Positions 18,988 to 35,256 of a stretch of DNA of 64,000 nt are shown in pieces. The notes under the pieces are model-generated. The model did no database searches. It was not told where the DNA came from and saw nothing but the letters and a program-made list of their open reading frames with translations. Made by a program: the position numbers and the translations under genes. The stretch's first letter is position 1, and every line of letters starts with the position of its first letter. The stretch covers positions 2,232,001 through 2,296,000 of the forward strand of contig NZ_CP074405.1 of the NCBI RefSeq assembly GCF_018388445.1, in the 5' to 3' direction. The stretch is from Cellulomonas wangleii (lineage in GTDB: Bacteria; Actinomycetota; Actinomycetes; Actinomycetales; Cellulomonadaceae).

Positions 18988-19070
18988 GTCCGGGTGGCGG
19001 AATGGCAGACGCGCTAGCTTGAGGTGCTAGTGCCCGAAAGGGCGTGGGGGTTCAAGTCCCCCTCCGGACA
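18988..19070 (+). tRNA. tRNA-Leu (anticodon GAG)
   Basis: An 83-nt type II tRNA. The acceptor stem pairs GTCCGGG with TCCGGAC (last pair G-T), followed by discriminator A at 19070. The anticodon stem CTAGC/GCTAG encloses loop TTGAGGT, giving anticodon GAG, which reads CUC and CUU. A long variable arm (TGCCCGAAAGGGCGT) and a TTCAAGT T-loop are present. CCA is not encoded. A strong terminator follows, and the accessory block starts immediately downstream; such tRNA 3' ends are common integration targets. Confidence 0.97.
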
Positions 19071-19085
19071 CTCGTTGAGACAGCG

Positions 19086-19304: not shown

Positions 19305-20774
19305 ATGATCACTCGTGCCGAAGGGGCGTACCTGGGAGCCGTCCGGGCGTTCCAGAACCCCATGCTCGACCTGCTGCACAAGCGGCACGCTCCCCTGGTC
19401 GTCTCGCTGCTGTCGCTCGTGTTCACGGCGGAGCGGCCCGCCGTGCCGGTCGCCGACGTGCACACGGAGGTCGCCGACGCGCTGGACCAGCTGCGCGCCG
19501 CCGGCCACGGCGACGCCCTGCCGGTCGGCTCGGCGCGCGACCTGTGCCGGCAGTGGGCGGACGCGGGCTGGCTCGTGCGCCAGGTGCTCGACGACGACGT
19601 CGAGGTGTACCGGCTGTCGGCGCACGCGGTCGGGGCCCTCGAGGTCGCGGGGCGTGCCGGCGGTGCACGCGCCCGGGTGTCGCAGTCGCGGGTGCGCACG
19701 CTGCTCGAGGCCGTCGAGCGGCTCGCGCTCGACGCCGACCCGGACGTCATGGTCCGCATCGCCCGCCTCGACACCGAGGTGAGGCGGCTTCAGGCCGAGA
19801 TCGCGCGCCTCGAGCGCACGGGCGAGGTCGACGAGGTCGACGACGAGGAGCTGCTCGAGGAGGCCGAGAACGTCGTGCACCTCGTGCGCGAGCTGCCCGC
19901 GGACTTCGCACGCGTCGCGGAGTCGATCAAGGCGATGCAGCGCGACGTGGTCACCGCCCTGCGCCAGGACCAGCGCCCGACCGGTGACGTGCTGCGCGAG
20001 TACCTGCAGCGCGGCGAGCAGGTGATGGACTCGACCCCCGAGGGGCGTGCGTTCGCCGGTGCGCTGCGGCTGCTGGGCGACCCGCAGCGGCTCGACGAGC
20101 TCTCGGTGCAGCTCGACACGGTGCTGCGGCACCGGTTCGCCGCCCGGCTGCCCTCGGCGCAGCGCGCCGAGCTGCGCGAGATCGTGCGGCGCATCGAGCA
20201 GGGGCTCGACCAGGTCTTCGCCGCCCAGCGCGAGGCGTCGTACGTGATCACGGCGCAGGTGCGCAACCACGACCCGCTGCGCGACCGGCAGGTCGACGAC
20301 CTGCTGCGCGACGTCATGACGGGGATGGCGGCGTGGCTCCCGGACTCGCGCCGCGGGCAGGCCGTGACACCGCTGCGCCGGCTACCGGTCGCGGACGTCG
20401 AGCACCTGCGCCAGACGCCCGGCGACCTGCGCCCGCCGCGCGCGCCCGACGCGCTGACCGACTGGGACGACGGGGCGGACGTCTCCGACACCGACGCCCG
20501 CGCCTGGGGCGGGCCGCACTACGCGGACCTCGAGGCGCACCTGAGCGCGTTCGGCGTCGACGCGTCCGAGGTGGACCTGGCGGCGGCGTTCCGTGCCGCC
20601 CCGCAGGAGCTGCGCCGGCCGGTGGACCTGCTGGGCCTGCTGGAGCTCGCGCACCAGCGCGGCATGACCGAGAGCGACGAGGTCGCGTTCGTCGACGCGG
20701 TGCGACCGGACGGCACGCGCCGCCGGTTCGCCTTCGGTGCGACGACGACCAGGACGAGGGACGAGGACCGATGA
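19305..20774 (+). CDS. jetA: JetA/MksF-like kleisin (DUF3375)
   Basis: A 489-residue DUF3375 protein, the kleisin-type subunit of Wadjet (JetABCD) and MksBEF(G) SMC complexes. It begins in the conserved way, [20 protein letters not shown], followed by a winged-helix region. A long helical and acidic segment follows ([20 protein letters not shown], about 163-195), then a C-terminal domain with [20 protein letters not shown]. It would bridge the SMC heads and bind JetB. The ATG at 19305 has TACGCT 8 nt upstream and no ribosome-binding site. The stop overlaps jetB as ATGA. First gene of a four-gene coupled operon next to tRNA-Leu. Confidence 0.88.
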
Positions 20775-21718
20775 CGGACACCGTCGTGCACGATGACGTG
20801 GAGGCGGGCGGGTTCATCGCGCCCGTCGCGATGGAGGACGACCCGGCCGAGCTGTTCGCCGGGGACACCGGGACGCTCGATGCCGACGTGCGCCGGGTCC
20901 TCGTGCGGCTGCTGCAGCGACGGTTCCTGCTGGCCGAGCGCAACCCCGCGCAGTGGCGCACCCTGCTGGAGAACCAGCAGGTCGTCGAGTCGCGCCTGCA
21001 CGACCTGTTCGTCCACCTCGTCGTCGACCACGACCGCGGCATCGCGTACAAGCGGCAGGTGCGCTCGGCCGAGCTCGACGTGCCCGTGCTGCTGCGCGAC
21101 GAGCCGTACACGCGCGCCGAGACCCTCGTCCTCGTCCACCTGCGCACGGTGTTCCAGCGGGAGCGCGGCGCCGGGGAGACCTCCGCCCGCGTGGACGTCG
21201 AGGAGCTCGAGGCCACCGCACTGACGTACTTCGACCCGGACGACACCAACGTCGCCGCGCACCAGCGCGAGATCCGCACGGCGGTCGCGCGGCTGGCCAA
21301 GGACGGCGTGATCGACGAGGAGTCCGAGGGCCGGTACCGCGTGACTCCCCTGGTCGAGGTCGTGCTCAGCAACGAGCGGCTCGCCGAGCTGCGCGAGTGG
21401 CTGCGGACGCGCGACGAGGACGACGCGGCGGACGGCGGCGCCCCGGGCGGCGACGAGCCCGGCGCCCCCGCCCTGCAGTCCGACGTCCCCGAGGGCGGCG
21501 ACAGCGACGTCGAGGACGCCGGGACGGACGGGGAGACCGAGCCCGCAGGGACGGCGGAGCAGGACGGCCGCACCGACCCGACGACCGCCGGCGAGGCGCC
21601 CGAGCCGCCGGGCGAGGCGGCCCCGGGCAGCCCGGTCGAGGAGATCCCCGGCCAGGGGACGATCGACGAGGCACTGGCGGACCAGGCGTCCGACGACGAC
21701 GAGGAGACGGCACCGTGA
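20771..21718 (+). CDS. jetB: JetB/MksE-like KITE subunit (DUF4194) with acidic tail
   Basis: A 315-residue DUF4194 protein, the KITE (MksE-like) winged-helix partner of the kleisin. The conserved core is residues 30 to about 210: [53 protein letters not shown] and [20 protein letters not shown]. From about residue 215 a 100-residue Asp/Glu/Gly/Pro-rich tail follows that the family does not require; it may be a flexible negative arm. Coupled to jetA (ATGA) and to jetC (GTGA). Confidence 0.87.
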
Positions 21719-24700
21719 CGATGGTCGACTCGCTGTTCGGGCTGATCCCCGCGGCGTCGACGGGTCAGCAGTGGGTGGCGCTGGACCTGCAGCTGGTCAA
21801 CTGGGGCGGCTACGACGGGCACCACCGGGTGCGCCTGGCGTCAACCGCGACGCTGCTGTCCGGCGGGTCGGGGTCCGGCAAGTCCACGCTGATGGACGCG
21901 TACATCGCGCTGCTCATGCCGCACACCACGCCCTTCAACGGCGCGTCCAACGGCGGGGTCGTGGGCCGTCCGCGCGGCAAGGACCAGCGCAACATCCTGT
22001 CCTACGCGCGCGGCAAGCTCGACGAGTCCCGCACCGAGGAGGGCACCCGCCAGCGGGTGCTGCGCGGCGACGGCAAGGACACGTGGTCGGCGATCGCGAT
22101 GACGTGGGCCGACCAGTCGGGCACCCGCTTCACCGCGGTGCGCGGGTGGTACGTGCCGTCGTCGGCGCGCACGCTCGAGGACGTCGCGGCCGTGCGGGCG
22201 ACGTGCGAGACGGAGTTCGACCTGCGGGCGCTCGAGCAGGCAGCGGCACAGCGCCTGACGCGCTCCGCGGTGGCCGCCGCGGGCCTCACCTGCTTCGACA
22301 CCGACCGCGAGTTCACCGCGCGGCTGCACTCGACGCTCGGCATCGGCGCCGCGGGCGACGGCGGCAAGGCCGTGGCCCTGCTGGGGCGCATCCAGGCCGG
22401 GCAGCAGATCACCACCGTCGACGCGCTGTACAAGGCGATGGTGCTCGAGGAGCCCGACACGTTCGCCACGGCCGACGCGGTCGTCGAGCAGTTCGACAAG
22501 CTCACGGGCACGCGCGAGCAGATGATCACGGCGCGGCAGCAGGTCAAGGCGCTCGAGCCGATCCGGGAGCACCGTGCGGCGATCGAGCAGGCCGCGGCCC
22601 GGCTGCGCGTCGTCGACGCCGTCGGCGGGTTCGACGACGGCACCTCACCGGCCGCGCTGTGGCGCCACGAGCGGCGTCTGGGACTGCTGCGGGACGTCGA
22701 GACGGACCTGCAGGGCCGGCACCGCGAGGCCCAGCGCCTGGCCGCGGAGACCTCCGCCCGCATCGCCGCCGCCCGCACGGAGCTCGACGGCGTCAAGCAG
22801 ACGCTGTGGGCGTCCGGGGGCGACCGGCTCGCCACCGCGCAGCGGGAGCTGCGCGGTGTCGCGACCCGGCTGGACGAGGTCACCCGGGCTCGCGCCCGGC
22901 TCGAGGAGGTCCTCACCTCGACGCTCGGCACGTCGGTCACGACGCTCGAGGAGTTCACCGACCTCGTCGCCCGTGCGCGGCACGCGCTCGCCGACTCCGA
23001 CGCCAAGGCCGGCGCCCGGCAGGCGCTGTTCGACGCGATGTCCGAGCGCAAGGAGGCGTCGGCCGACCTGGCCGTCCTGCGCCGTGACCACGACGACGCG
23101 CGGCACCGCCACGACAACATCCCGGGCGACCTGCACGCGACGCGCGCGGCACTGGCTCAGGCAGCGGGCCTCGCACCCGAGGACCTGCCGTTCGTCGCCG
23201 AGCTGGTCGAGGTCCGCACCGAGCACGAGCCGTGGCGTGACGCGTTCAACCTCGCGCTCGGCGGGTTCGCGACGCTCCTGCTGATCGACATCGCCCACCT
23301 GCAGGCGTTCCGGCGTGCCATCGACACGGTCCGCACGGGCCGGCGCATCCGCTTCGAGGGCGTCCCCACGGACCTGCGCGACGACGTCGGCATGGACGGC
23401 CGCACGCTGCCCGGCCGGCTGGACTACCGGCAGAGCCCGTTCACGGGCTGGCTGAAGGGTGAGCTCGCGTCACGGTTCGCGTACGTCTGCGTGGACACCC
23501 CCGGGGAGCTCGCGCAGCACGAGAAGGCGCTGACGCGCGGCGGCCAGGTCTCCGAGGGGCGTCGCGGCGCGCACGGCGGGCAGGGCGCCCGCAACGTGCT
23601 CGGCTTCACGAACACGCGCCGCCTGAGCGACCTGGAGCGGCAGGTCGAGGCCGCCGAGGCGCGGCTCACGTCCGCGGAGGCCCGCGTCGAGGAGGCGGAG
23701 GCCGCCTGGGACCGGCACGACGCGACGCTGCGCGCGTACACCGCCGTGGTCGAGCTCACGTGGGACCAGGTCGACGTCGCGGGCGTCGAGGCCGAGCGCG
23801 ACCGCTGGCAGTTCGTCGTCGACGAGGTCACGTCCGGCAACCCCGACGTGGTGCGCCTGCAGCAACGGGCCGTCGAGCTCGAGGTGCTCATCCAGGACCT
23901 CACCGAGCAGCTCGGGCGCACCAAGGGCGCCGCGGGCGACCTCGGGGAACGCTGGTCGGCGACGACCGACGCGGTCGACGTCGCCCAGGGCGCGCTGGAC
24001 GCCGCGCACGACGCGGGGACCCAGCTCGACCCGGAGCAGCGGGCGTACCTCGAGCACGTGCTGGGCGGCACCGCCGCGGACCTGCCGAGCGGCACCGCCG
24101 CGGACCTGCCGGGCGGCACCGCCGCGGACCTGCCGGGCGACGACGCGCGCACCGACCCGTCGGCAGCGCTCGACGCGTTCGACGCCGTCGTGTCGCGCGC
24201 CGCCGACCTGCTGCGCGCCGACCGGCAGGCCGCGCAGCAGACCGTCGCCACCGCGCGCGACGCCCTGCGCCGCACGTTCGAGACGTTCGTCGAGCGCTGG
24301 CCCGACCCGAACCTCGGCACCGACCCCGACGCCTCGTACGGCGACTACGACCGGATCCTCACCGAGCTGCAGGCCCAGGGCCTGCACGAGCTCGAGGCCG
24401 AGTGGCGCAAGAGCCTGCTGCGGCTGTCCGGCAACGACCTGGCCGACCTGCACAGCGCGCTGTCGCGCTCGGTGCGCGAGATCAAGGAGCGCATCCGCCC
24501 GGTCAACGACATCCTCGCGGACCTGCCGTTCGCGGACGACGACCACCGCCTGCGCATCGACGCCCGCGACACCCAGTCGACCGTCGTCGCCCGGTTCCGC
24601 AAGGAGCTGCGCGACCTGCGCGAGGTGCTCTCGACCGAGGCGACGGACGCCGAGCGCGAGCGCCGGTACCACCGGATGGCGAAGGTCATCGACCGCATCC

Positions 24701-25143
24701 GGCGCACCTCCCCCGACTTCGCCGACCTCGTGGACGTGCGCCGGCACGTGCGGCTGTCGGCCGAGAAGGTCGACCTCGACGGGAACCACGTCGCGCTGTA
24801 CGACCACATCGGCGAGAAGTCCGGCGGGGAGTCGCAGGAGCTCGTGGCGTTCATCGTCGGCGCGGCGCTGCGCTACCAGCTCGGCGACGCGGGTGCCGCG
24901 CGCCCCCGGTACGCGCCGGTGTTCCTCGACGAGGCCCTCATCAAGGCCGACGCCCGGTTCACCGGACGCGCCATCGGCGCGTGGCGCGGGCTGGGCTTCC
25001 AGCTGATCATCGGCGCGCCGAACGACAAGTTCAGCGCGCTGGAGCCGCACGTGGACCTCAAGTACGTCGTGCTCAAGGACGCCACGGGCCGGTCGCGGAC
25101 CAAGCCGGTGGCAGGGCTCCCGGCGGACGGGCCGGCCGAGTGA
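21715..25143 (+). CDS. jetC: JetC/MksB-like SMC ATPase
   Basis: A 1142-residue SMC-family ATPase of the MukB/MksB/JetC (SbcC-like) type. Walker [10 protein letters not shown] is at residues 50-58. Coiled-coil arms run through about 275-480 and 640-800, with a hinge-like segment between (about 500-640: [20 protein letters not shown], then [19 protein letters not shown]). The ABC signature [15 protein letters not shown], Walker [14 protein letters not shown] and a C-terminal [20 protein letters not shown] follow. It would be the loop-extruding motor of the complex. The GTG start at 21715 overlaps the jetB stop (an ATG two codons later is also possible). A 24-bp triplication lies within the second arm. 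The stop overlaps the MazG-like gene as GTGA. Confidence 0.9.
24067..24138 (+). repeat. Three tandem 24-bp units inside jetC
   Basis: The unit GGCACCGCCGCGGACCTGCC plus four bases is repeated three times with one changed base, encoding G-T-A-A-D-L-P-S/G three times. It interrupts the returning coiled coil of JetC in frame and looks like a recent slippage expansion. Confidence 0.9.
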
Positions 25144-25490
25144 CCGGCGACGGCGACGACCTCGCCGCGCTGCAGCGGCGCGCCGTCGCGGTGCGTGAGC
25201 TCTACGCGCGGGCAGAGGCCGCGCGGTACGGGCGGACGTGGACGACCGAGGAGATCATGCTCGGCTTCGTCGGCGACGTCGGTGACCTGGCCAAGCTCGT
25301 GCAGGGCAAGGCGGGCGTACGCCCCCGCGCCGACCTCGACGACGCCCTCGCGCACGAGCTCGCCGACTGCCTGTGGTCGGTCCTCGTGCTCGCCGACGCG
25401 TACGGGGTCGACCTGTCCGCGGCGTTCAGCAGGACGATGGACGAGCTGACCGCACACCTCACCCCCGACGAGGACCGCCCCGGCTCCTGA
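25140..25490 (+). CDS. MazG-like nucleotide pyrophosphohydrolase, last gene of the jet operon
   Basis: A 116-residue all-alpha NTP pyrophosphatase of the MazG-like type. The metal-binding helices are visible as WTTEEIMLGFVGDVGDLAKL (the EE and Asp ligands) and LAHELADCLWSVLVLADAYG (ExxD ligands). Members hydrolyse nucleoside triphosphates or alarmone-like nucleotides to monophosphate and pyrophosphate. The GTG start overlaps the jetC stop (GTGA), so it is translated with the SMC operon. It occupies the position where jetD (the topoisomerase-VI-like nuclease, MksG) is found in Wadjet operons, but it has no toprim or nuclease feature. Its substrate and any role with JetABC are unknown. Confidence 0.8.
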   Translation: MTGDGDDLAALQRRAVAVRELYARAEAARYGRTWTTEEIMLGFVGDVGDLAKLVQGKAGVRPRADLDDALAHELADCLWSVLVLADAYGVDLSAAFSRTMDELTAHLTPDEDRPGS

Positions 25491-25924: not shown

Positions 25925-25962
25925 CTCACCAATCGATGGCATCTTCTGTAGCGATTGGTGAG
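25925..25962. promoter_or_regulatory. Perfect 11-bp inverted repeat upstream of the Fic-like gene
   Basis: CTCACCAATCG (25925-25935) and CGATTGGTGAG (25952-25962) with a 16-nt spacer. A further AATCGCTA at about 25905 is complementary to TAGCGATT at 25949. The whole stretch is AT-rich compared with its surroundings. It ends 13 nt before the preferred GTG start and is a plausible operator for the winged-helix domain of the encoded protein, or a hairpin. Confidence 0.55.
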
Positions 25963-25975
25963 ACCTGGTGACAGC

Positions 25976-27028
25976 GTGAAGTCGTTCGAGGACCTCGACT
26001 CCCTGATCGGGTCCGTCCCGTTCGACGTCGTCGCGGACCTCCGCGTCGTGGACACGGTGCGCGGCAGCGCGGCGTTGCTCCCGGACGTCCTGCCCGGCCT
26101 CCTGTCGAGCCTGGCCGACCGTGCACGCCCCGCGAGCATCGAGTCGTCGGCAGCCCTCGACGGGGTCGTCGTCCCGCGGCGACGCGCAGCGGACATCGTC
26201 GCTGGTGAGGCCGATCGGTTGCGGGGACGCGAGGAGCAGACGCTCGCCGGGTGCCGCGACGCCTTCGATCACGTCGCCCAGGAGGACCGGGGGCCCCTGG
26301 ACGTCGACCTGGTCCTGGACGTCCACCGGCTGCTGCTCGCACACACCCCGACACCGGGCGGACGGCTCCGGCGGGTCGAGAGCGTCGTCCTGGACCGCGA
26401 CCCGCGTGCCGCGCGGGTCAAGCGCTTCACACCCGTCGCGGTGGCCGACGTCCCCCACCACCTCGACGAGCTGATCGCGCGCTACCGCGGTGCGCTCGCC
26501 ACCGACCGCCATCATCCCGTCCTGCTCACCGGCCTGTTCGTGCTCGACCTCGTGGCGATCCGCCCCTTCACCACCGCCAACGGCCGGCTCGCGCGTGCCC
26601 TGACGCCGGGCCTGCTGCACGATGCCGGGTACGACGTCGCGCGGTACGTGTCGCTCGACGCGGCCATCGCGCGGTCAGCCGAGGCGCACGCCGCCGCACT
26701 GCTCGACTCGACCGCGGACTGGCAGGGCGCCCGGCACGATCCGTGGCCGTGGCTGCACTCCCTGGTCCGGGCACTGGCGGACTGCTCCGAGCAGCTCTCC
26801 TCCCTCGTCGCCACGGCACGTAGCGGCCGGAGCAAGCAGGAGCGCGTCCGCACCTACGTGCTGCATCACGCAGGGCGCTCGTTCCGCATGAGCGATGCCC
26901 GGACCGCGCTGCCCGGGGTCTCCGACCAGACGATCCGGCTCGTCCTCGGCGAGCTGAGGAACGACGGACTGGTCGAGGTGGACGGTGTGGGCCGCAGCGC
27001 GACGTGGAGCACGGTGCGCACGCGGTAG
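25976..27028 (+). CDS. Fic-fold protein with degenerate active site and C-terminal winged helix
   Basis: A 350-residue protein (counted from the GTG at 25976; in-frame TTG and GTG starts at 25955 and 25958 lie inside the inverted repeat). It has the layout of bacterial Fic regulators: an N-terminal region with an inhibitory-helix-like IESSAALDG, the Fic core, and a C-terminal winged helix (about 285-350: SKQERVRTYVLHHAGRSF, VSDQTIRLVLGELRNDGLVE). The Fic motif HPFxxGNGRxxR reads RPFTTANGRLAR at 196-207: the catalytic His is Arg, and the first Gly of GNGR is Ala. AMP transfer is therefore unlikely; a nucleotide-sensing or DNA-binding role is possible. It lies among pseudogenes, so loss of function is an alternative. 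Confidence 0.8.
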   Translation: MKSFEDLDSLIGSVPFDVVADLRVVDTVRGSAALLPDVLPGLLSSLADRARPASIESSAALDGVVVPRRRAADIVAGEADRLRGREEQTLAGCRDAFDHVAQEDRGPLDVDLVLDVHRLLLAHTPTPGGRLRRVESVVLDRDPRAARVKRFTPVAVADVPHHLDELIARYRGALATDRHHPVLLTGLFVLDLVAIRPFTTANGRLARALTPGLLHDAGYDVARYVSLDAAIARSAEAHAAALLDSTADWQGARHDPWPWLHSLVRALADCSEQLSSLVATARSGRSKQERVRTYVLHHAGRSFRMSDARTALPGVSDQTIRLVLGELRNDGLVEVDGVGRSATWSTVRTR

Positions 27029-27974: not shown

Positions 27975-28313
27975 TCAGCCGAGCGAGTCCTGGACCCTGG
28001 TCAGCTGGACCAGCAGAGCCGGGATCACGTCATGCGCCGTCGAGACGAGAACGTCGGTGTCGGTCGACCAGTACCCGTGCACGATCCGGTTGCGCAGTCC
28101 CGCGGCGCGGCGCCACGGCACATCTGGATGCCGTTCCCGCGTCTCCTGGGAGACCTGCTTCGCCGCCTCTCCGAGGACGGTGAAGTTCCACAGCAGCGCC
28201 TCACGCACCGTCGCGTCCTGGTCGACGGCGTGCGCGTCACGGTCGGCGCTCAACGTGACGATGCGTGTCGCGGCGTCGATCATCTCGGCGACGAACAGCA
28301 CGTCAGGACGCAT
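27975..28313 (-). CDS. hepT: HepT-like ribonuclease toxin (DUF86)
   Basis: A 112-residue HEPN-domain toxin of the HepT/DUF86 family. The catalytic RX4HXY motif is intact as LRNRIVHGYW (Arg 74, His 79, Tyr 81), and the helical HEPN scaffold is seen in REALLWNFTVLGEAAKQVSQ. HepT is an RNase neutralised by its MntA partner, which adds AMP to the Tyr of this motif. The ATG at 28313 overlaps the end of mntA by 11 nt, so the pair is cotranscribed, antitoxin first. Likely a complete, functional toxin-antitoxin module. Confidence 0.88.
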   Translation of the reverse strand: MRPDVLFVAEMIDAATRIVTLSADRDAHAVDQDATVREALLWNFTVLGEAAKQVSQETRERHPDVPWRRAAGLRNRIVHGYWSTDTDVLVSTAHDVIPALLVQLTRVQDSLG

Positions 28314-28599
28314 AGAGCGCCCGAGCCTCTGTCTCGATTCGCTCACGCAGCAGCGGGTGCACCGCCCTGCGTGAGACGAGGTCCACCGGACGTCCGAGGA
28401 TCTCCGACATCTCCTCCGCGGCATCGATGATCTCCCAGGTCACATGCCGCCCGGGGAGCAGGTCGTAGAGCACGTCGATGTCGGAGTCCGCGCGCTCCTC
28501 GCCACGAGCTACCGACCCGAAGACGTCGAGCCTGGCGAACCCGAATCTCGCGCACAGGTCGACCAGCGCGCGGTACTGGCGCTCGTCGACGTGGATCAT
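28303..28599 (-). CDS. mntA: MntA-like nucleotidyltransferase antitoxin
   Basis: A 98-residue minimal nucleotidyltransferase. The motif GSVARGEERADSDIDVLYD (residues 28-46) contains the GS and the DxD pair (Asp 40, Asp 42) that define the MNT fold and bind Mg-ATP. MntA AMPylates and so silences HepT. The gene precedes and overlaps hepT. A TAGCCT hexamer lies 6 nt before its ATG (leaderless-type promoter). Divergent from the RHH/Doc module, 141 bp between starts. Confidence 0.87.
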   Translation of the reverse strand: MIHVDERQYRALVDLCARFGFARLDVFGSVARGEERADSDIDVLYDLLPGRHVTWEIIDAAEEMSEILGRPVDLVSRRAVHPLLRERIETEARALYAS

Positions 28600-30074: not shown

Positions 30075-33000
30075 CTACTGGAAGTCCCGCGACCTGCTCC
30101 GCACCTTCAACGACAACGGACTGAGGTGCTCCGCGACGAGGTTGGTCGCCCCGTCCGCCTTCTCCAGCCGCCCCCGCACGACCATCGCCTTCGCCGTCCG
30201 GGCCGTCCGCCGGAACCTCTGCCACAGCCCGGCGGAGCACACGATGTTGAGCAGCCCGGTCTCGTCCTCCAGGGACAGGAAGGTCACTCCCCCGGCTGTG
30301 CCCGGGCGTTGGCGGTGCGTGACGACGCCGGCGACGGCGATGCGGCGGCCCTCCTCGGTGCGGAACGCCTGCTCGACGCGCAGCACACCGGCCTCGTCCA
30401 GACCCTCGCGGACGAACTGCGTCGGGTAGGAGTCGACCGACACCCCCGTCGCCCACACGTCGGCGGTCGCGACCTCGACGTCCGACAGCCCCGGCAGCGT
30501 CGGGGCCTTCACACCGACGGCCACCCCGGGCAGCGTGTCCGGTCCCTCCTGCGCGAGCGCACCCGCTGCCCACAGCCCCGCCCGCCGGTCCACCCCGAGG
30601 GAGTCCAGCGCACCGGCCGTCGCGAGCGCCTCGAGCTGCGCGGTGGTGAGCTGCACACGCTGCACCAGGTCGTGCAGGTCGGCGAACGGGCCGCGCGCGG
30701 TGCGCGCGTCGACGAGGGCACGCGCGACGTCCTCGCCGATGGTCCGCACCTGCGTCAGCCCCTGCCGCACCGCCAGCGAGCGCACCGACCCCTCGCCCGT
30801 GCGCACCCCCACGGGCCGGGTCGGACCGGTGCCGCTGGGCTGCGCCACCAGGCGCGGCTCACCGCCGGGCGGTGTCGGGCCCACCCGCTCGACGACCGCC
30901 AGCACGTCGGACGCCTGCACGTCCGGACGCAGCACGTCGATGCCGTGCCGTCGCGCGTCGGCAGCGAGCGACTGCGGCGAGTAGAAGCCCATGGGCTGCG
31001 CCGCGAGCAGGCCGGCGTAGAACGCGGCCGGGTGGTGCACCTTGAGCCACGAGCTCGCGTACACGAGGAACGCGAACGAGTACGCGTGCGACTCGGGGAA
31101 CCCGAAGTCCGCGAACGCCTTGAGCTTGTCGAAGATCTCCTCGCGCACCTTCGGCCCGATGCCCTTGGCCGCCATGCCGTCCATGAGCCGCGCCCGCATC
31201 GCCTCCATGCGCTCGACGGACCGCTTCGACCCCATGGCGCGGCGCAGCTGGTCGGCCTCGGCGGGCGTGAAGTCCGCGACGTCGATGGCCATCTGCATGA
31301 GCTGCTCCTGGAACAGCGGCACACCGAGGGTCTTGCTCAGCGACTTCTCCAGCGACGGGTGCAGGTACGTGACCTTCTGCCGGCCCTGGGCGCGCTCGAT
31401 GTACGGGTGCACCGACCCGCCCTGGATCGGCCCGGGCCGGATGAGCGCGACCTCCACCACGATGTCGTAGAACTTCTGCGGCCGCAGCCGCGGCAGCGTC
31501 CCCATCTGCGCACGGGACTCCACCTGGAACACGCCCACGGTGTCGGCGGCGGACAGCAGCTCGTACACCGCCGGGTCCTCGTGCGGCAGCCCGTGCAGGT
31601 CGAGCACGACGCCCTCGTGCTTCTCGACCTCGGTGAACGCCAGCCGCAGCGCGGTGAGCATGCCCAGGCCCAGCAGGTCGAACTTCACCAGGCCGGCGTC
31701 GGCGCAGTCCTCTTTGTCCCACTGCAGGACCGTGCGGCCCTCCATGCGCGCCCACTCCACCGGGCACACCTCGATGACCGGCCGGTCGCACATCACCATG
31801 CCGCCGGAGTGGATGCCCAGGTGCCGCGGCAGCCGCAGGAACCGCTCGGCCAGGTCGATGACGTGCTCGGGGATGTCCTCGGTGTCCGCCGCGGCCGGCG
31901 GCAGGTGCGCCGGGACGACGTCGTGGTTGTCAGCGGTCGGACGCCCCGGCGTCTCCGGCGCCACCGGCCCGGAGCGCGTCAGGTGCCACCACGGGCTGGG
32001 CTTCTCCTGCCCGCGCAGGCTCCCCCACCGCTCGATCGACGAGCTCCACGCGTCCTGCTGCCCCGCGTCGTACCCCAGCGCCCGGGCAGCGTCGCGCACC
32101 GCCGAGCGCGGCCGGTAGGAGATGACGTTGGCGACCTGCGCGGCGTGCGTGCGCCCGTGCATGGCGTAGACGTGCTGGATGACCTCCTCACGGCGCGCGG
32201 ACTCGATGTCGACGTCGATGTCCGGCGGGCCGTCGCGCTCCGGGGCGAGGAACCGCTCGAACAGCAGGCCGTGCTTCACGGGGTCGACCGCGGTGACGCG
32301 CAGCACGTAGCAGACCGCGGAGTTGGCCGCCGAGCCGCGCCCCTGCGCCATGATCCCGTTGCGACGGCAGAAGTCGACCAGCTCGTAGACCACGAGGAAG
32401 TAGCCGCAGAACCCGAGGTCCTCGATGACGCGCAGCTCGTGCTGCAGCTGCGCGTACGCACCGGGCACGCGCTCAGCCTCCGGCGGCCCGTACAGCTCGA
32501 GCGCGCCGCGGCGCACGAGCTCGCGCAGCCACGTCGCCTCGGTGTGCCCGTCCGGCACGGGGTACGGCGGCAGGCTCGGGGCGACGAGCGACAGGTCGAA
32601 CGCGCACTCGGCGGCCAGATCCGCGGCCGTGCTCACGGCGCTGGGGTGCCGGCGGTGCAGGTAGAGCATCTCGGTCGCCGACCGCAGGTGGGCGACGGGA
32701 GCGCCGGGCAGCCACCCGTCGAGGTCGTCGAGGGAGGACCGCGCACGCACGGCCGCCAGCGCCTGCGCCAGGTCCACGTCGCGCTCGGTGGCGTAGTGGA
32801 CGTTGCCGGTCGCGACCAGCGGCAGGTTCGCCTCGCTCGCCAGGGCGGCGAGCGCGTCCGCGCGGTCGGTGTCGTACGCGTCACCGTGCACCGTGGTCTC
32901 GACGGCCACGTTGTCGCGCCCGAACAGCGCGACGAGCCGGTCGAGCTCGCGGCGCGCGGACTCCAGCCCGCCGGGAGCCACCCCGAGCACGCCCGACGGG

Positions 33001-33560
33001 TCACCGCCCGCGAGCGCGCGCCGCACCGCGCCCTTGCGGCACCCGGTCAGCACGAGCCACTGCCCGGCAGCCGCCTGCGCCAGCTCCTCCAGGTGGTACT
33101 CCGCGGCGCCCTTGCGGCCGGTGCGCAGGTGCCCCTCGGCGATCGCGCGCGACAGCGCCCGGTACCCGTCGGGCCCGCGCGCGAGCACCAGCAGGTGGCT
33201 CGCACGGGGGTCGGGGACGCCGGTCGGCGCGTCGAGCACCGGCGGCCCCGGCGTGGGGCGCTTCTCGCGCGGGTGCCGGCGGGGATCGGGCGCGGGAAGG
33301 TGCAGCTCGGCGCCGAACACCGTGGGCAGCCCGACGGCTCGCGCCGCCTGCGCGAACCGCACGACGCCGTACAGGCCGTCGTGGTCGGTCAGCGCCAAGG
33401 CGCTCTGCCCCAGCCGGGCGGCCTCGGCGGCGAGCTCCTCGGGCTGGCTGGCACCGTCGAGGAAGCTGAAGGCGGAGTGCGCGTGCAGCTCGGCGTACCG
33501 CGGGGGCCAGTCCGTGCGGGCCTCGTGCACGCCCCGCCCCCGGACGCGGCGCTCAGTCAT
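30075..33560 (-). CDS. dnaE2: Error-prone DNA polymerase DnaE2
   Basis: A 1161-residue C-family polymerase of the DnaE2 (ImuC) type, which does SOS mutagenic lesion bypass with ImuA' and ImuB. The PHP domain begins YAELHAHSAFSFLDGAS. The polymerase active site includes GSAANSAVCYVLRVTAVDP and the acidic PPDIDVDIES. Helix-hairpin-helix and OB-fold (GVTFLSLEDETGLLNIVCS) domains follow. The clamp-binding motif found in DnaE1 is not obvious at the end, as expected for DnaE2. Start overlaps the imuB stop by 8 bp. Third gene of the LexA-controlled cassette. Confidence 0.96.
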   Translation of the reverse strand: MTERRVRGRGVHEARTDWPPRYAELHAHSAFSFLDGASQPEELAAEAARLGQSALALTDHDGLYGVVRFAQAARAVGLPTVFGAELHLPAPDPRRHPREKRPTPGPPVLDAPTGVPDPRASHLLVLARGPDGYRALSRAIAEGHLRTGRKGAAEYHLEELAQAAAGQWLVLTGCRKGAVRRALAGGDPSGVLGVAPGGLESARRELDRLVALFGRDNVAVETTVHGDAYDTDRADALAALASEANLPLVATGNVHYATERDVDLAQALAAVRARSSLDDLDGWLPGAPVAHLRSATEMLYLHRRHPSAVSTAADLAAECAFDLSLVAPSLPPYPVPDGHTEATWLRELVRRGALELYGPPEAERVPGAYAQLQHELRVIEDLGFCGYFLVVYELVDFCRRNGIMAQGRGSAANSAVCYVLRVTAVDPVKHGLLFERFLAPERDGPPDIDVDIESARREEVIQHVYAMHGRTHAAQVANVISYRPRSAVRDAARALGYDAGQQDAWSSSIERWGSLRGQEKPSPWWHLTRSGPVAPETPGRPTADNHDVVPAHLPPAAADTEDIPEHVIDLAERFLRLPRHLGIHSGGMVMCDRPVIEVCPVEWARMEGRTVLQWDKEDCADAGLVKFDLLGLGMLTALRLAFTEVEKHEGVVLDLHGLPHEDPAVYELLSAADTVGVFQVESRAQMGTLPRLRPQKFYDIVVEVALIRPGPIQGGSVHPYIERAQGRQKVTYLHPSLEKSLSKTLGVPLFQEQLMQMAIDVADFTPAEADQLRRAMGSKRSVERMEAMRARLMDGMAAKGIGPKVREEIFDKLKAFADFGFPESHAYSFAFLVYASSWLKVHHPAAFYAGLLAAQPMGFYSPQSLAADARRHGIDVLRPDVQASDVLAVVERVGPTPPGGEPRLVAQPSGTGPTRPVGVRTGEGSVRSLAVRQGLTQVRTIGEDVARALVDARTARGPFADLHDLVQRVQLTTAQLEALATAGALDSLGVDRRAGLWAAGALAQEGPDTLPGVAVGVKAPTLPGLSDVEVATADVWATGVSVDSYPTQFVREGLDEAGVLRVEQAFRTEEGRRIAVAGVVTHRQRPGTAGGVTFLSLEDETGLLNIVCSAGLWQRFRRTARTAKAMVVRGRLEKADGATNLVAEHLSPLSLKVRSRSRDFQ

Positions 33561-35256
33561 AGTCGGCCTCGCAGGTCCAGACCCCGTCGGTGTGCGTGAG
33601 CAGCACGGCTCCCCCGTCGTCGAACGCGACCTGCAGGTGGCCGCGGACCTGCGGTGCGGCGCCGGGGTGCGTCCACCAGCGGTCGGACAGCAGCCACGGC
33701 CCGGCCCACCCGGCGACGGCCCGCGCCCGGTCGCCGCCGTCGACGTCGGACCACACCGCGCGCACGGTGGTGGGCCGCCCGCTCAACCGGCCGCGTCGGT
33801 CGATCCGCACGGGTGCGCCGTCGACGTCCCGCACCTCGACGCGCACGGGGTCGACCAGCACGGTCGCCGGCGCCGGGTCCGGCAGCCTGCCCGGCCAGGG
33901 ACGGTCGAGCGGCCGCGGTGGGTCGCTCTGCTCGCCCCAGGGCCGCACGTGCACCTGGTCGCGCACGTCACGCCCGCCCTGCAGGGTCACGGTGAGGACC
34001 CCCTGCCCGCCGACGATGCTCTGCGCACGCTCCAGCGCCCGGTGCGCGCGCAGGTCACCGCCCGACGGGCCGCCCCACAGCTGCGTGGCCTCGGCACCCG
34101 CGGGGGCGACGTCGAGCGCCGTGAGCGTGAGGCGGACCAGCGCGACGGGGGCGACGTCGTCCTCGTCGCCGGGCGCCCGCACGTCGACCGGCCGGCGCCC
34201 GGACCCGACGCCCCGCTCCTGCTCCCACACCTCGCGCCGCCGGTCCCGCGCCGTGGCGACCGCCGACGCGGTGAGCCACCCGTCGAGCTGCCAGCGGATC
34301 CGGTCGGTGATGCGGGCGGCGGCGAGCGCACCCCACCCGCCCAGGTCGGTGCGCCACGTGCGGACCAGCTCGGTGCCGTCGTCGGTGCGTGCCGCGACCT
34401 GCAGCCGCCCGCACGTCACGGACCGCGCGACGAGGTCGGCGTGCAGCTCCTCTGCCAGGCGCCGCCCGGCGAACGTCGCGGTGTCGACGCGGTCGACCGG
34501 CGGGTCGAGGTCGACGCTCACCTCCAGGTCCGCCTCGGGGCGACGCCGCGCGGGCGGCCGCTCGTCCAGGCCGCGGGCGAGCGTGCGCGCCCACGTGCCG
34601 AGGCGCCCGAACCGCGCGTGCACGTCCGGTGCCGGCAGCGCCGCGAACGCGCCCAGCGTGCGCAGGCCGAGGCGGTGCAGCAGGTCGACCAGCCGCATCA
34701 CCTCGGCGGCCTGCTCGGGCGTGGTGGTCGCGTGCACGAGCTCGGTGACGCCGTGCGGTGCGAGGAACACCGCCGACACCCCGGGCTCGACGACGGCCCC
34801 GGTGCGCGCGGCCAGCACGGCGGCGAGCAGCCCGTCGGCCGTCCCGACGCCGCACTCGTGGCCCGTGGCGCGGGCGACCGCGTCGACGATCCGCTCCGCG
34901 AGCGCCTCCTCCGACCCGTGGTACCGCGACGCACCGCCGGCGGGCAGCAGGAGCAGGCCGGGACGCGCGACCTCGACGCCGGCGACGACCGTCTCGGTCG
35001 CCGCGGCGACCGGCTCGAACAGCCGCACGTCGCGCGCGTCGTCCGCGGGCAGCAGCACCAGCTCGGGGCTCACCCCCTGCGCCTGGCGTCGTCGCATGCC
35101 CCGCCGCACCCCGTCGGCGCGGGCGAGCGCCGACACGGCGGTGACCCGTCGCCCGTCGTGCACGGCGGCAGGCAGGTCGAGGGGAACCTCGTCGGCGGTC
35201 ATCGCCGCGACCACGGGCCAGTCGGGCACCCACACGACCGTCGTCCGCGTGCTCAT
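33553..35256 (-). CDS. imuB: ImuB, inactive Y-family polymerase adaptor
   Basis: A 567-residue Y-family homologue that lacks the catalytic acids: the N-terminal strand reads VVWVPDWPVVAA where an active enzyme has DxDxFFAxVE. It works as the scaffold that links DnaE2 to the beta clamp and to the RecA-like partner. The palm/fingers, the thumb HhH (LLHRLGLRTLGAFAALPAPD) and the little finger are recognisable, with a long C-terminal region (about 370-567) for protein contacts. Coupled to imuA by an ATGA overlap and to dnaE2 by 8 bp. Confidence 0.93.
   Translation of the reverse strand: MSTRTTVVWVPDWPVVAAMTADEVPLDLPAAVHDGRRVTAVSALARADGVRRGMRRRQAQGVSPELVLLPADDARDVRLFEPVAAATETVVAGVEVARPGLLLLPAGGASRYHGSEEALAERIVDAVARATGHECGVGTADGLLAAVLAARTGAVVEPGVSAVFLAPHGVTELVHATTTPEQAAEVMRLVDLLHRLGLRTLGAFAALPAPDVHARFGRLGTWARTLARGLDERPPARRRPEADLEVSVDLDPPVDRVDTATFAGRRLAEELHADLVARSVTCGRLQVAARTDDGTELVRTWRTDLGGWGALAAARITDRIRWQLDGWLTASAVATARDRRREVWEQERGVGSGRRPVDVRAPGDEDDVAPVALVRLTLTALDVAPAGAEATQLWGGPSGGDLRAHRALERAQSIVGGQGVLTVTLQGGRDVRDQVHVRPWGEQSDPPRPLDRPWPGRLPDPAPATVLVDPVRVEVRDVDGAPVRIDRRGRLSGRPTTVRAVWSDVDGGDRARAVAGWAGPWLLSDRWWTHPGAAPQVRGHLQVAFDDGGAVLLTHTDGVWTCEADYD

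Follow-up and report, generated by a model that had tools for sequence, protein, structure and literature searches.

What does a Wadjet motor do in a genome with no recognisable JetD nuclease to go with it? The question is raised by a 64,000-nucleotide stretch of the Cellulomonas wangleii chromosome (contig NZ_CP074405.1, positions 2,232,001 to 2,296,000; hereafter the window), which carries genes for the JetA, JetB and JetC subunits of a type I Wadjet, a plasmid-cutting SMC (structural maintenance of chromosomes) system, followed by a MazG-like gene, and no gene for the nuclease subunit JetD. The reading favoured here, with a probability of about 0.6, is that a type I Wadjet is represented here by its JetABC motor alone, JetD being absent, and that selection has preserved this motor for a JetD-independent function.

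The three Jet proteins give strong matches to the PADLOC models of type I Wadjet and are encoded in a single operon (Table 1). The first-pass annotation of this DNA had described a DUF3375 kleisin, a DUF4194 KITE protein and a MukB-like SMC ATPase with intact Walker A, signature and Walker B motifs; the Pfam and PADLOC type I matches agree (for JetC, Pfam AAA_29, SbcC_Walker_B and MukB N-terminal), and all three motifs are present in JetC. The coordinates were likewise confirmed, as were the 4-bp overlaps linking all four genes: ATGA between jetA and jetB, GTGA at 21715–21718 between jetB and jetC, and GTGA at 25140–25143 between jetC and the MazG-like gene (mazG). The start of jetC is either the GTG at 21715, which gives the 4-bp overlap, or the ATG at 21721. 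Gene order and DUF3375/DUF4194/SMC content are those of the type I JetABCD systems of Escherichia coli GF4-3 and Pseudomonas aeruginosa PA14 (PDB JetC chains 8as8, 8dk2), and the window JetC and JetB match solved chains. The window and most of its clade differ from these systems in being without JetD, and in occupying an established chromosomal position in several genera. The host chromosome is a single contig of 4.08 Mb, and the closest named relatives at the locus are Cellulomonas. That the operon lacks jetD had been noted before, with the suggestion that an unlinked copy might serve it; a search of the complete genome for the JetD Toprim nuclease gave no match to PF09983 or PF11795, the two Pfam models covering its halves, while the Corynebacterium glutamicum control was positive in both searches. 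An unlinked JetD of the known families was thus not found, and the locus is not classed as a complete Wadjet. Canonical SMC and ScpA are encoded there. The locus has the content of an MksBEF-type complex, i.e., a MukB-like SMC, a kleisin and a KITE protein without MksG.

For comparison, 80 loci with JetC of 51–97% identity were fetched, their genes were called, and the six frames were searched with a profile derived from the JetDs of relatives. In the resulting set of 81 loci (the 80 and the window), 27 carry JetD, defined as profile coverage over 330 of 410, three have a C-terminal fragment (L019, L064 and L074) and 51 have none; the last number includes five named loci with less than 1.3 kb of contig after jetC (L002, L009, L012, L020 and L048), and L003, whose JetD lacks a start codon, was scored among the JetD-bearing loci. 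All 80 fetched loci yielded JetA and JetB, truncated in a few where the contig ends. In 22 of the 27 JetD-bearing relatives the JetD start codon lies 4 bp inside the jetC end, and the acidic (Toprim) motifs that align with MksG are kept, with single changes in L010 and L070. No common replacement for jetD was found downstream: the first gene after jetC varies between clades, and the commonest one (174 aa, weakly matching APS kinase and AAA_33) occupies that place in only seven of the 54 loci without intact JetD. At L001 (13454–21842), from the closest named relative, the genes after jetC encode a 328-aa protein, a 1573-aa eCIS core domain protein and an AAA ATPase, and mazG is absent. The window JetB is long (315 aa, against a median of 223 aa for the 27 JetD-bearing relatives); all 13 JetBs of at least 285 aa in the 81-locus set come from JetD-less loci.

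A survey of 221 genomes of the family, overlapping the 81-locus set, gave a similar distribution. JetC carriers were picked by hand from the match table, which listed JetC down to about 229 bits, so that fragments could be missed and the number of genomes with a JetC of the window's clade is at least 121 (nine of the 121 are less than 90% complete). Among the matches listed, which is the scope of all the family counts given below, 97 of these 121 genomes are without any JetD_C match; JetD adjoins jetC in 11, a fragment does so in one, and in 12 the match lies elsewhere or on another contig. Over all 221 genomes the JetD_C search was positive in 31.

In a simple NG86 count on GC-rich DNA (74% in the window), using hand-picked pairs with some loci entering two pairs, the ratio of nonsynonymous to synonymous change (dN/dS) of JetC was 0.04–0.19 (median 0.09) in 14 pairs with both members JetD-less, 0.12–0.21 in six mixed pairs, and 0.15–0.23 in four pairs with both members JetD-bearing. 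Within JetD-less pairs JetA gave values like those of JetC (0.03–0.25), and JetB was looser (0.02–0.59). Sister pairs differing in JetD point the same way, the JetD-less JetC branch being the shorter in six of eight, one by a hair. The JetC ATPase motif pattern is found in 80 of the 81 loci, L078 having the conservative variant SGGSGTGKST, and two clades wholly without JetD (25 and 12 loci, mostly Cellulomonas) keep full-length jetC. Judged by these substitution patterns, JetC is under strong purifying selection in the absence of JetD.

Whether the JetD-less state arose by loss or by gain elsewhere was considered on JetC trees. The 81-row tree calls for a minimum of 13 changes of JetD state, of which 12 are forced by starred branches. 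A 119-row tree (38 rows added) requires at least 17 changes, resolved as 10 gains and seven losses at equal costs and as 33 losses once gains are weighted threefold or higher; its root was formed by seven distant loci chosen from JetD-bearing genomes, and therefore leans towards the JetD-bearing state. When eight distant JetD-less loci were included, the duplicate L195 (same JetC as L078) removed and the root placed at the midpoint, the resulting 126-row tree required at least 19 changes, and under that heavier weighting of gains it too gave 33 losses. Two loci without a usable JetC gene call (L203 and L217) were excluded from the rooted trees. Parsimony alone decides neither loss nor gain. 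Loss is favoured over repeated gain because JetD and JetC distances are strongly correlated (Mantel r 0.935; none of 999 permutations as high), the 30 JetDs of the window's clade form a single clade in the JetD tree, which has 18 of 34 splits in common with JetC, jetD lies at the same base, and three fragments have been left behind. JetD-bearing relatives occur at high JetC identity, making loss traceable between near neighbours. The median ratio of JetD to JetC change is 2.82 in Cellulomonas and Promicromonospora/Myceligenerans (seven loci), 1.22 in Actinomadura and others (20 loci) and 0.59 in distant loci (seven), and the fast change of JetD in Cellulomonas/Promicromonospora, where losses are common, would fit a JetD that was already of lesser importance there before it disappeared. 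No description of repeated JetD loss with JetABC retained was found in the available text of the open-licence literature searched.

The surroundings of the operon also suggest a stable residence. The gene for leucyl-tRNA synthetase (leuS) lies next to jetA, or one small open reading frame before it, in 29 of 40 further loci, and the other flank of these loci is usually glycogen phosphorylase, a HerA-like helicase or DegV. With L195 left out, 26 of the 28 leuS-adjacent loci lack JetD and two (L207 and L213) carry it in the expected place. The position beside leuS suggests that the operon has been inherited in place. Plasmid-borne copies were sought in 72,556 plasmid records, of which three matched at E 1e-30, with a best identity of 46.7% and none covering 80% of the query. 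The window itself has a tRNA-Leu (gag) gene at 18988–19071, 233 bp upstream of jetA, and in other genera jetABC follows the leucyl-tRNA synthetase gene; this is possibly a coincidence.

The likeliest account, as far as gene content and substitution patterns can tell, is that the Wadjet motor has been retained as a nuclease-free, MksBEF-like SMC complex. An ancestral type I Wadjet locus would have lost jetD by deletion, and JetABC would still load on DNA and extrude loops with ATP, now probably as an accessory MksBEF-like condensin acting on the chromosome beside the canonical SMC-ScpAB. The nuclease-less condensin-like complex proposed by the first-pass annotation thus stands as far as anatomy goes (MukB-like SMC, kleisin, KITE, no nuclease), and its chromosomal role is putative. 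Among the possibilities the accessory condensin would rank first, followed by slow decay and by a role in handling plasmids that involves no cutting. The broader proposition, that a plasmid-cutting Wadjet has repeatedly (as many as some 33 times on the JetC tree) become a nuclease-free chromosomal SMC motor, is more tentative, and we would put it at a little under even odds.

Several observations weigh against the favoured reading. The JetD-bearing pairs of the dN/dS comparison belong to other genera, and the NG86 count is a simple one for such GC-rich DNA. JetABC may also still bind plasmids without cutting them. Across the 81 loci the N-terminal region of JetB seems no less conserved where JetD is missing than where it is present. 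The IFDR motif reported as the JetD contact in another Wadjet is not recognisable in these JetB sequences, a point that alignment to a solved JetB does not settle; loss of a JetD-contact motif from JetB is unsupported, the N-termini looking alike in both groups. Nor did 342 sliding windows reveal a clearly relaxed stretch of JetA, JetB or JetC after JetD loss (11 long-branch loci having been dropped beforehand): the best p was 1.3e-3, unconvincing for that number of tests, and belonged to a window that is tighter, not looser, without JetD. As far as these comparisons reach, there are signs of retention and none of re-purposing. A JetC of the clade is present in 52 of 81 same-genus genomes and missing from the rest, and hence jetC is not essential there. 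At equal costs, parsimony on the 126-row tree gives 10 gains and nine losses with an ambiguous root state.

The distant loci add to these difficulties. JetC places well below 46% identity number 16 among the family matches listed; eight have JetD beside jetC, and were fetched because JetD had been found in those genomes, and eight (L220–L227) have none. By profile, these last eight have JetB in all cases, JetA in seven and JetD in none, and in the JetC tree they fall into two groups, each of four JetD-less loci. An earlier generalisation that distant Wadjets all have JetD is withdrawn in view of these eight. JetD-less JetABC is not peculiar to the window's clade.

Against this background, the alternatives can be compared. 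If the locus were an ordinary Wadjet in decay, jetD would have been lost first, cutting being costly, and jetABC would be a leftover due to follow. The variable or broken state of JetD (no start codon in L003, fragments in L019, L064 and L074) and its fast evolution in the Cellulomonas/Promicromonospora lineage are in keeping with such a course, but the motor does not share it: JetC dN/dS is low in the JetD-less pairs, the sister pairs show no general acceleration, the JetD-less clades of 25 and 12 loci retain full-length jetC, and JetA and JetB accompany it throughout the fetched loci. The 'decayed Wadjet' to which the first-pass annotation thought its proposal might reduce is therefore half right, jetD being gone and jetABC showing no decay, and we regard decay as unlikely. 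No likelier is an anti-plasmid activity without JetD, in which JetABC would compact or sequester circular DNA or hand it to a general nuclease. Such a role would suit the description of JetABC as the shape- and size-sensing part, given in the available text of PMC10586767, and the conservation of the JetB N-terminus without JetD; it sits badly with the report, in the available part of PMC10123090, that MksG, the JetD counterpart, is the executing nuclease, and with the lack of a common downstream substitute for jetD. A JetD acting in trans, or a diverged nuclease, has very little probability. The 12 family genomes with a non-adjacent JetD would be its best examples, but six of these JetDs belong to a second, distant Wadjet and contig breaks may part others from their jetC, while 97 of the 121 genomes, the complete window genome included, gave no match in a search that picked up JetD in 31 of the 221 genomes and in C. 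glutamicum, the control.

The last alternative gives the MazG-like gene the place of JetD, the motor sensing circular DNA and MazG altering nucleotide pools. It had been put forward in the first-pass annotation, where coupled translation was taken to favour a functional link, and it can draw on the fact that copies next to jetC overlap it by 4 bp and form one clade (support 96/86 in a tree of 21 rows), kept in six of the 12 genomes of the family whose JetC is at least 85% identical. The MazG assignment was overstated in strength: the PF03819 match, at 24.0 bits, lies just above the cut-off of 22, and the protein matches no PADLOC family. The first acidic motif of MazG is usually EExxE, and by eye it reads GDVGD here. 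Unlike MazG pyrophosphohydrolases, to which this weak match likens it, the window gene is short, single-domain, exchanged between strains and not tied to jetABC. The survey for a conserved jetABC-mazG order found mazG after jetC in six of the 121 family genomes and three of the 80 named loci; it is missing from the closest named relative (L001, JetC 97%), and homologues also occur elsewhere in genomes, including a 65% copy in the window genome that was not gene-called and stands outside the 21-row tree.

Sequence identity along the locus is uneven. The window and G099 share an identical run of 518 bp up to the mazG stop, whereas jetC before about 24200 is only 0.76–0.96 identical per 100 bp; compared with G100, identity is 0.79 in mazG, lower than in its neighbours jetC (0.90) and the downstream Fic-domain gene (fic; 0.89). 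This unevenness indicates that mazG has been exchanged between species by recombination. Between the window and G099, of the same genus, a sharp recombination tract covers 24250–25490 (the jetC 3′ end and mazG). The dN/dS of MazG is 0.33–0.94 in five pairs, against 0.17 and 0.07 for JetC in the two pairs with both values, and by this count mazG is weakly constrained. Close relatives (L003, L004, L074, G099 and G100) have fic downstream of jetC whether or not they carry jetD or mazG: L003 and L004 have no mazG and keep fic further on, and L074 has a JetD fragment (profile 309–402) behind mazG. The start of mazG coincides with the jetD start position in relatives, and its coupling to jetC was therefore probably inherited from jetD. 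In the simplest history, mazG would have been captured at the jetD start and taken over its translational coupling. MazG as an effector was rejected on its distribution, its single clade, recombination, weak constraint and inherited start site, and is the least probable of the explanations considered; the MazG-like gene looks like a passenger.

Table 1. Features of the jetABC locus, in window coordinates
Feature	Position	Strand	Description	Evidence
jetA	19305–20774	+	kleisin, DUF3375, 489 aa	Pfam PF11855 420 bits; PADLOC JetA1 709 bits
jetB	20771–21718	+	KITE, DUF4194/MksE-like, 315 aa, long acidic C-terminal tail	PF13835 147 bits; PF21980 MksE 28.2 bits (cut-off 27); JetB1 374 bits; PDB 8dk1 E 4.7e-07
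jetC	21715–25143	+	MukB-like SMC ATPase	PADLOC JetC1 1669 bits; PDB JetC 8dk2 E 1.2e-56
JetC Walker A motif	21859–21888	+	position derived from protein motif	
JetC ABC signature KSGGESQE	24817–24840	+	position derived from protein motif	
JetC Walker B VFLDEA	24919–24936	+	position derived from protein motif	
Recombination tract, 518 bp identical to G099	24973–25490	+	ends at mazG stop	
MazG-like gene	25140–25490	+	116 aa; judged a passenger	PF03819 24.0 bits (cut-off 22)
Fic-domain gene	25955–27028	+	anchor of local gene order	PF02661 42 bits

Two further gene pairs lie beyond fic on the minus strand of the window. A HepT-like gene and a nucleotidyltransferase gene (27975–28424 and 28303–28599) form what we take to be a pair resembling the MntA/HepT toxin-antitoxin. 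At 30075–35256, a gene for a DnaE-like DNA polymerase III alpha (1161 aa) adjoins one for an impB/mucB/samB-family protein, presumably resembling an ImuB-DnaE2 cassette.

Among described systems, MksBEFG of C. glutamicum comes from another actinomycete that has SMC-ScpAB plus a MukB-like complex, and the JetD of the window's relatives matches MksG (8b7f), but C. glutamicum has MksG, whereas the window operon is without the nuclease gene. The available text of PMC7083940 has that complex act on plasmids, with no obvious influence on nucleoid folding. MksBEF of P. aeruginosa is, like the window's complex, a MukB-like complex without a nuclease, and is assumed to act on the chromosome in what is available of PMC7083940 and PMC7485682; it differs in belonging to another branch, whereas JetD-bearing relatives of the window are close (the L003 JetC is 88% identical). 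The accessible part of PMC10123090 notes that MksG-like proteins are missing from some family members, its authors inferring horizontal spread, and that of PMC12287153 mentions Bacillota strains without at least one jet gene. In the portion of PMC10586767 available, a derivation of MukBEF, and likely MksBEF, from Wadjet is offered as speculation. If the repeated conversion into a chromosomal motor is true, present-day sister species would illustrate how a defence system could give rise to MksBEF- or MukBEF-like condensins, and the existence of close sisters that differ in JetD and have a similar motor makes the idea directly testable. Plasmid-defence calls made from jetABC alone would, moreover, mislabel many genomes that are without the cutting subunit.

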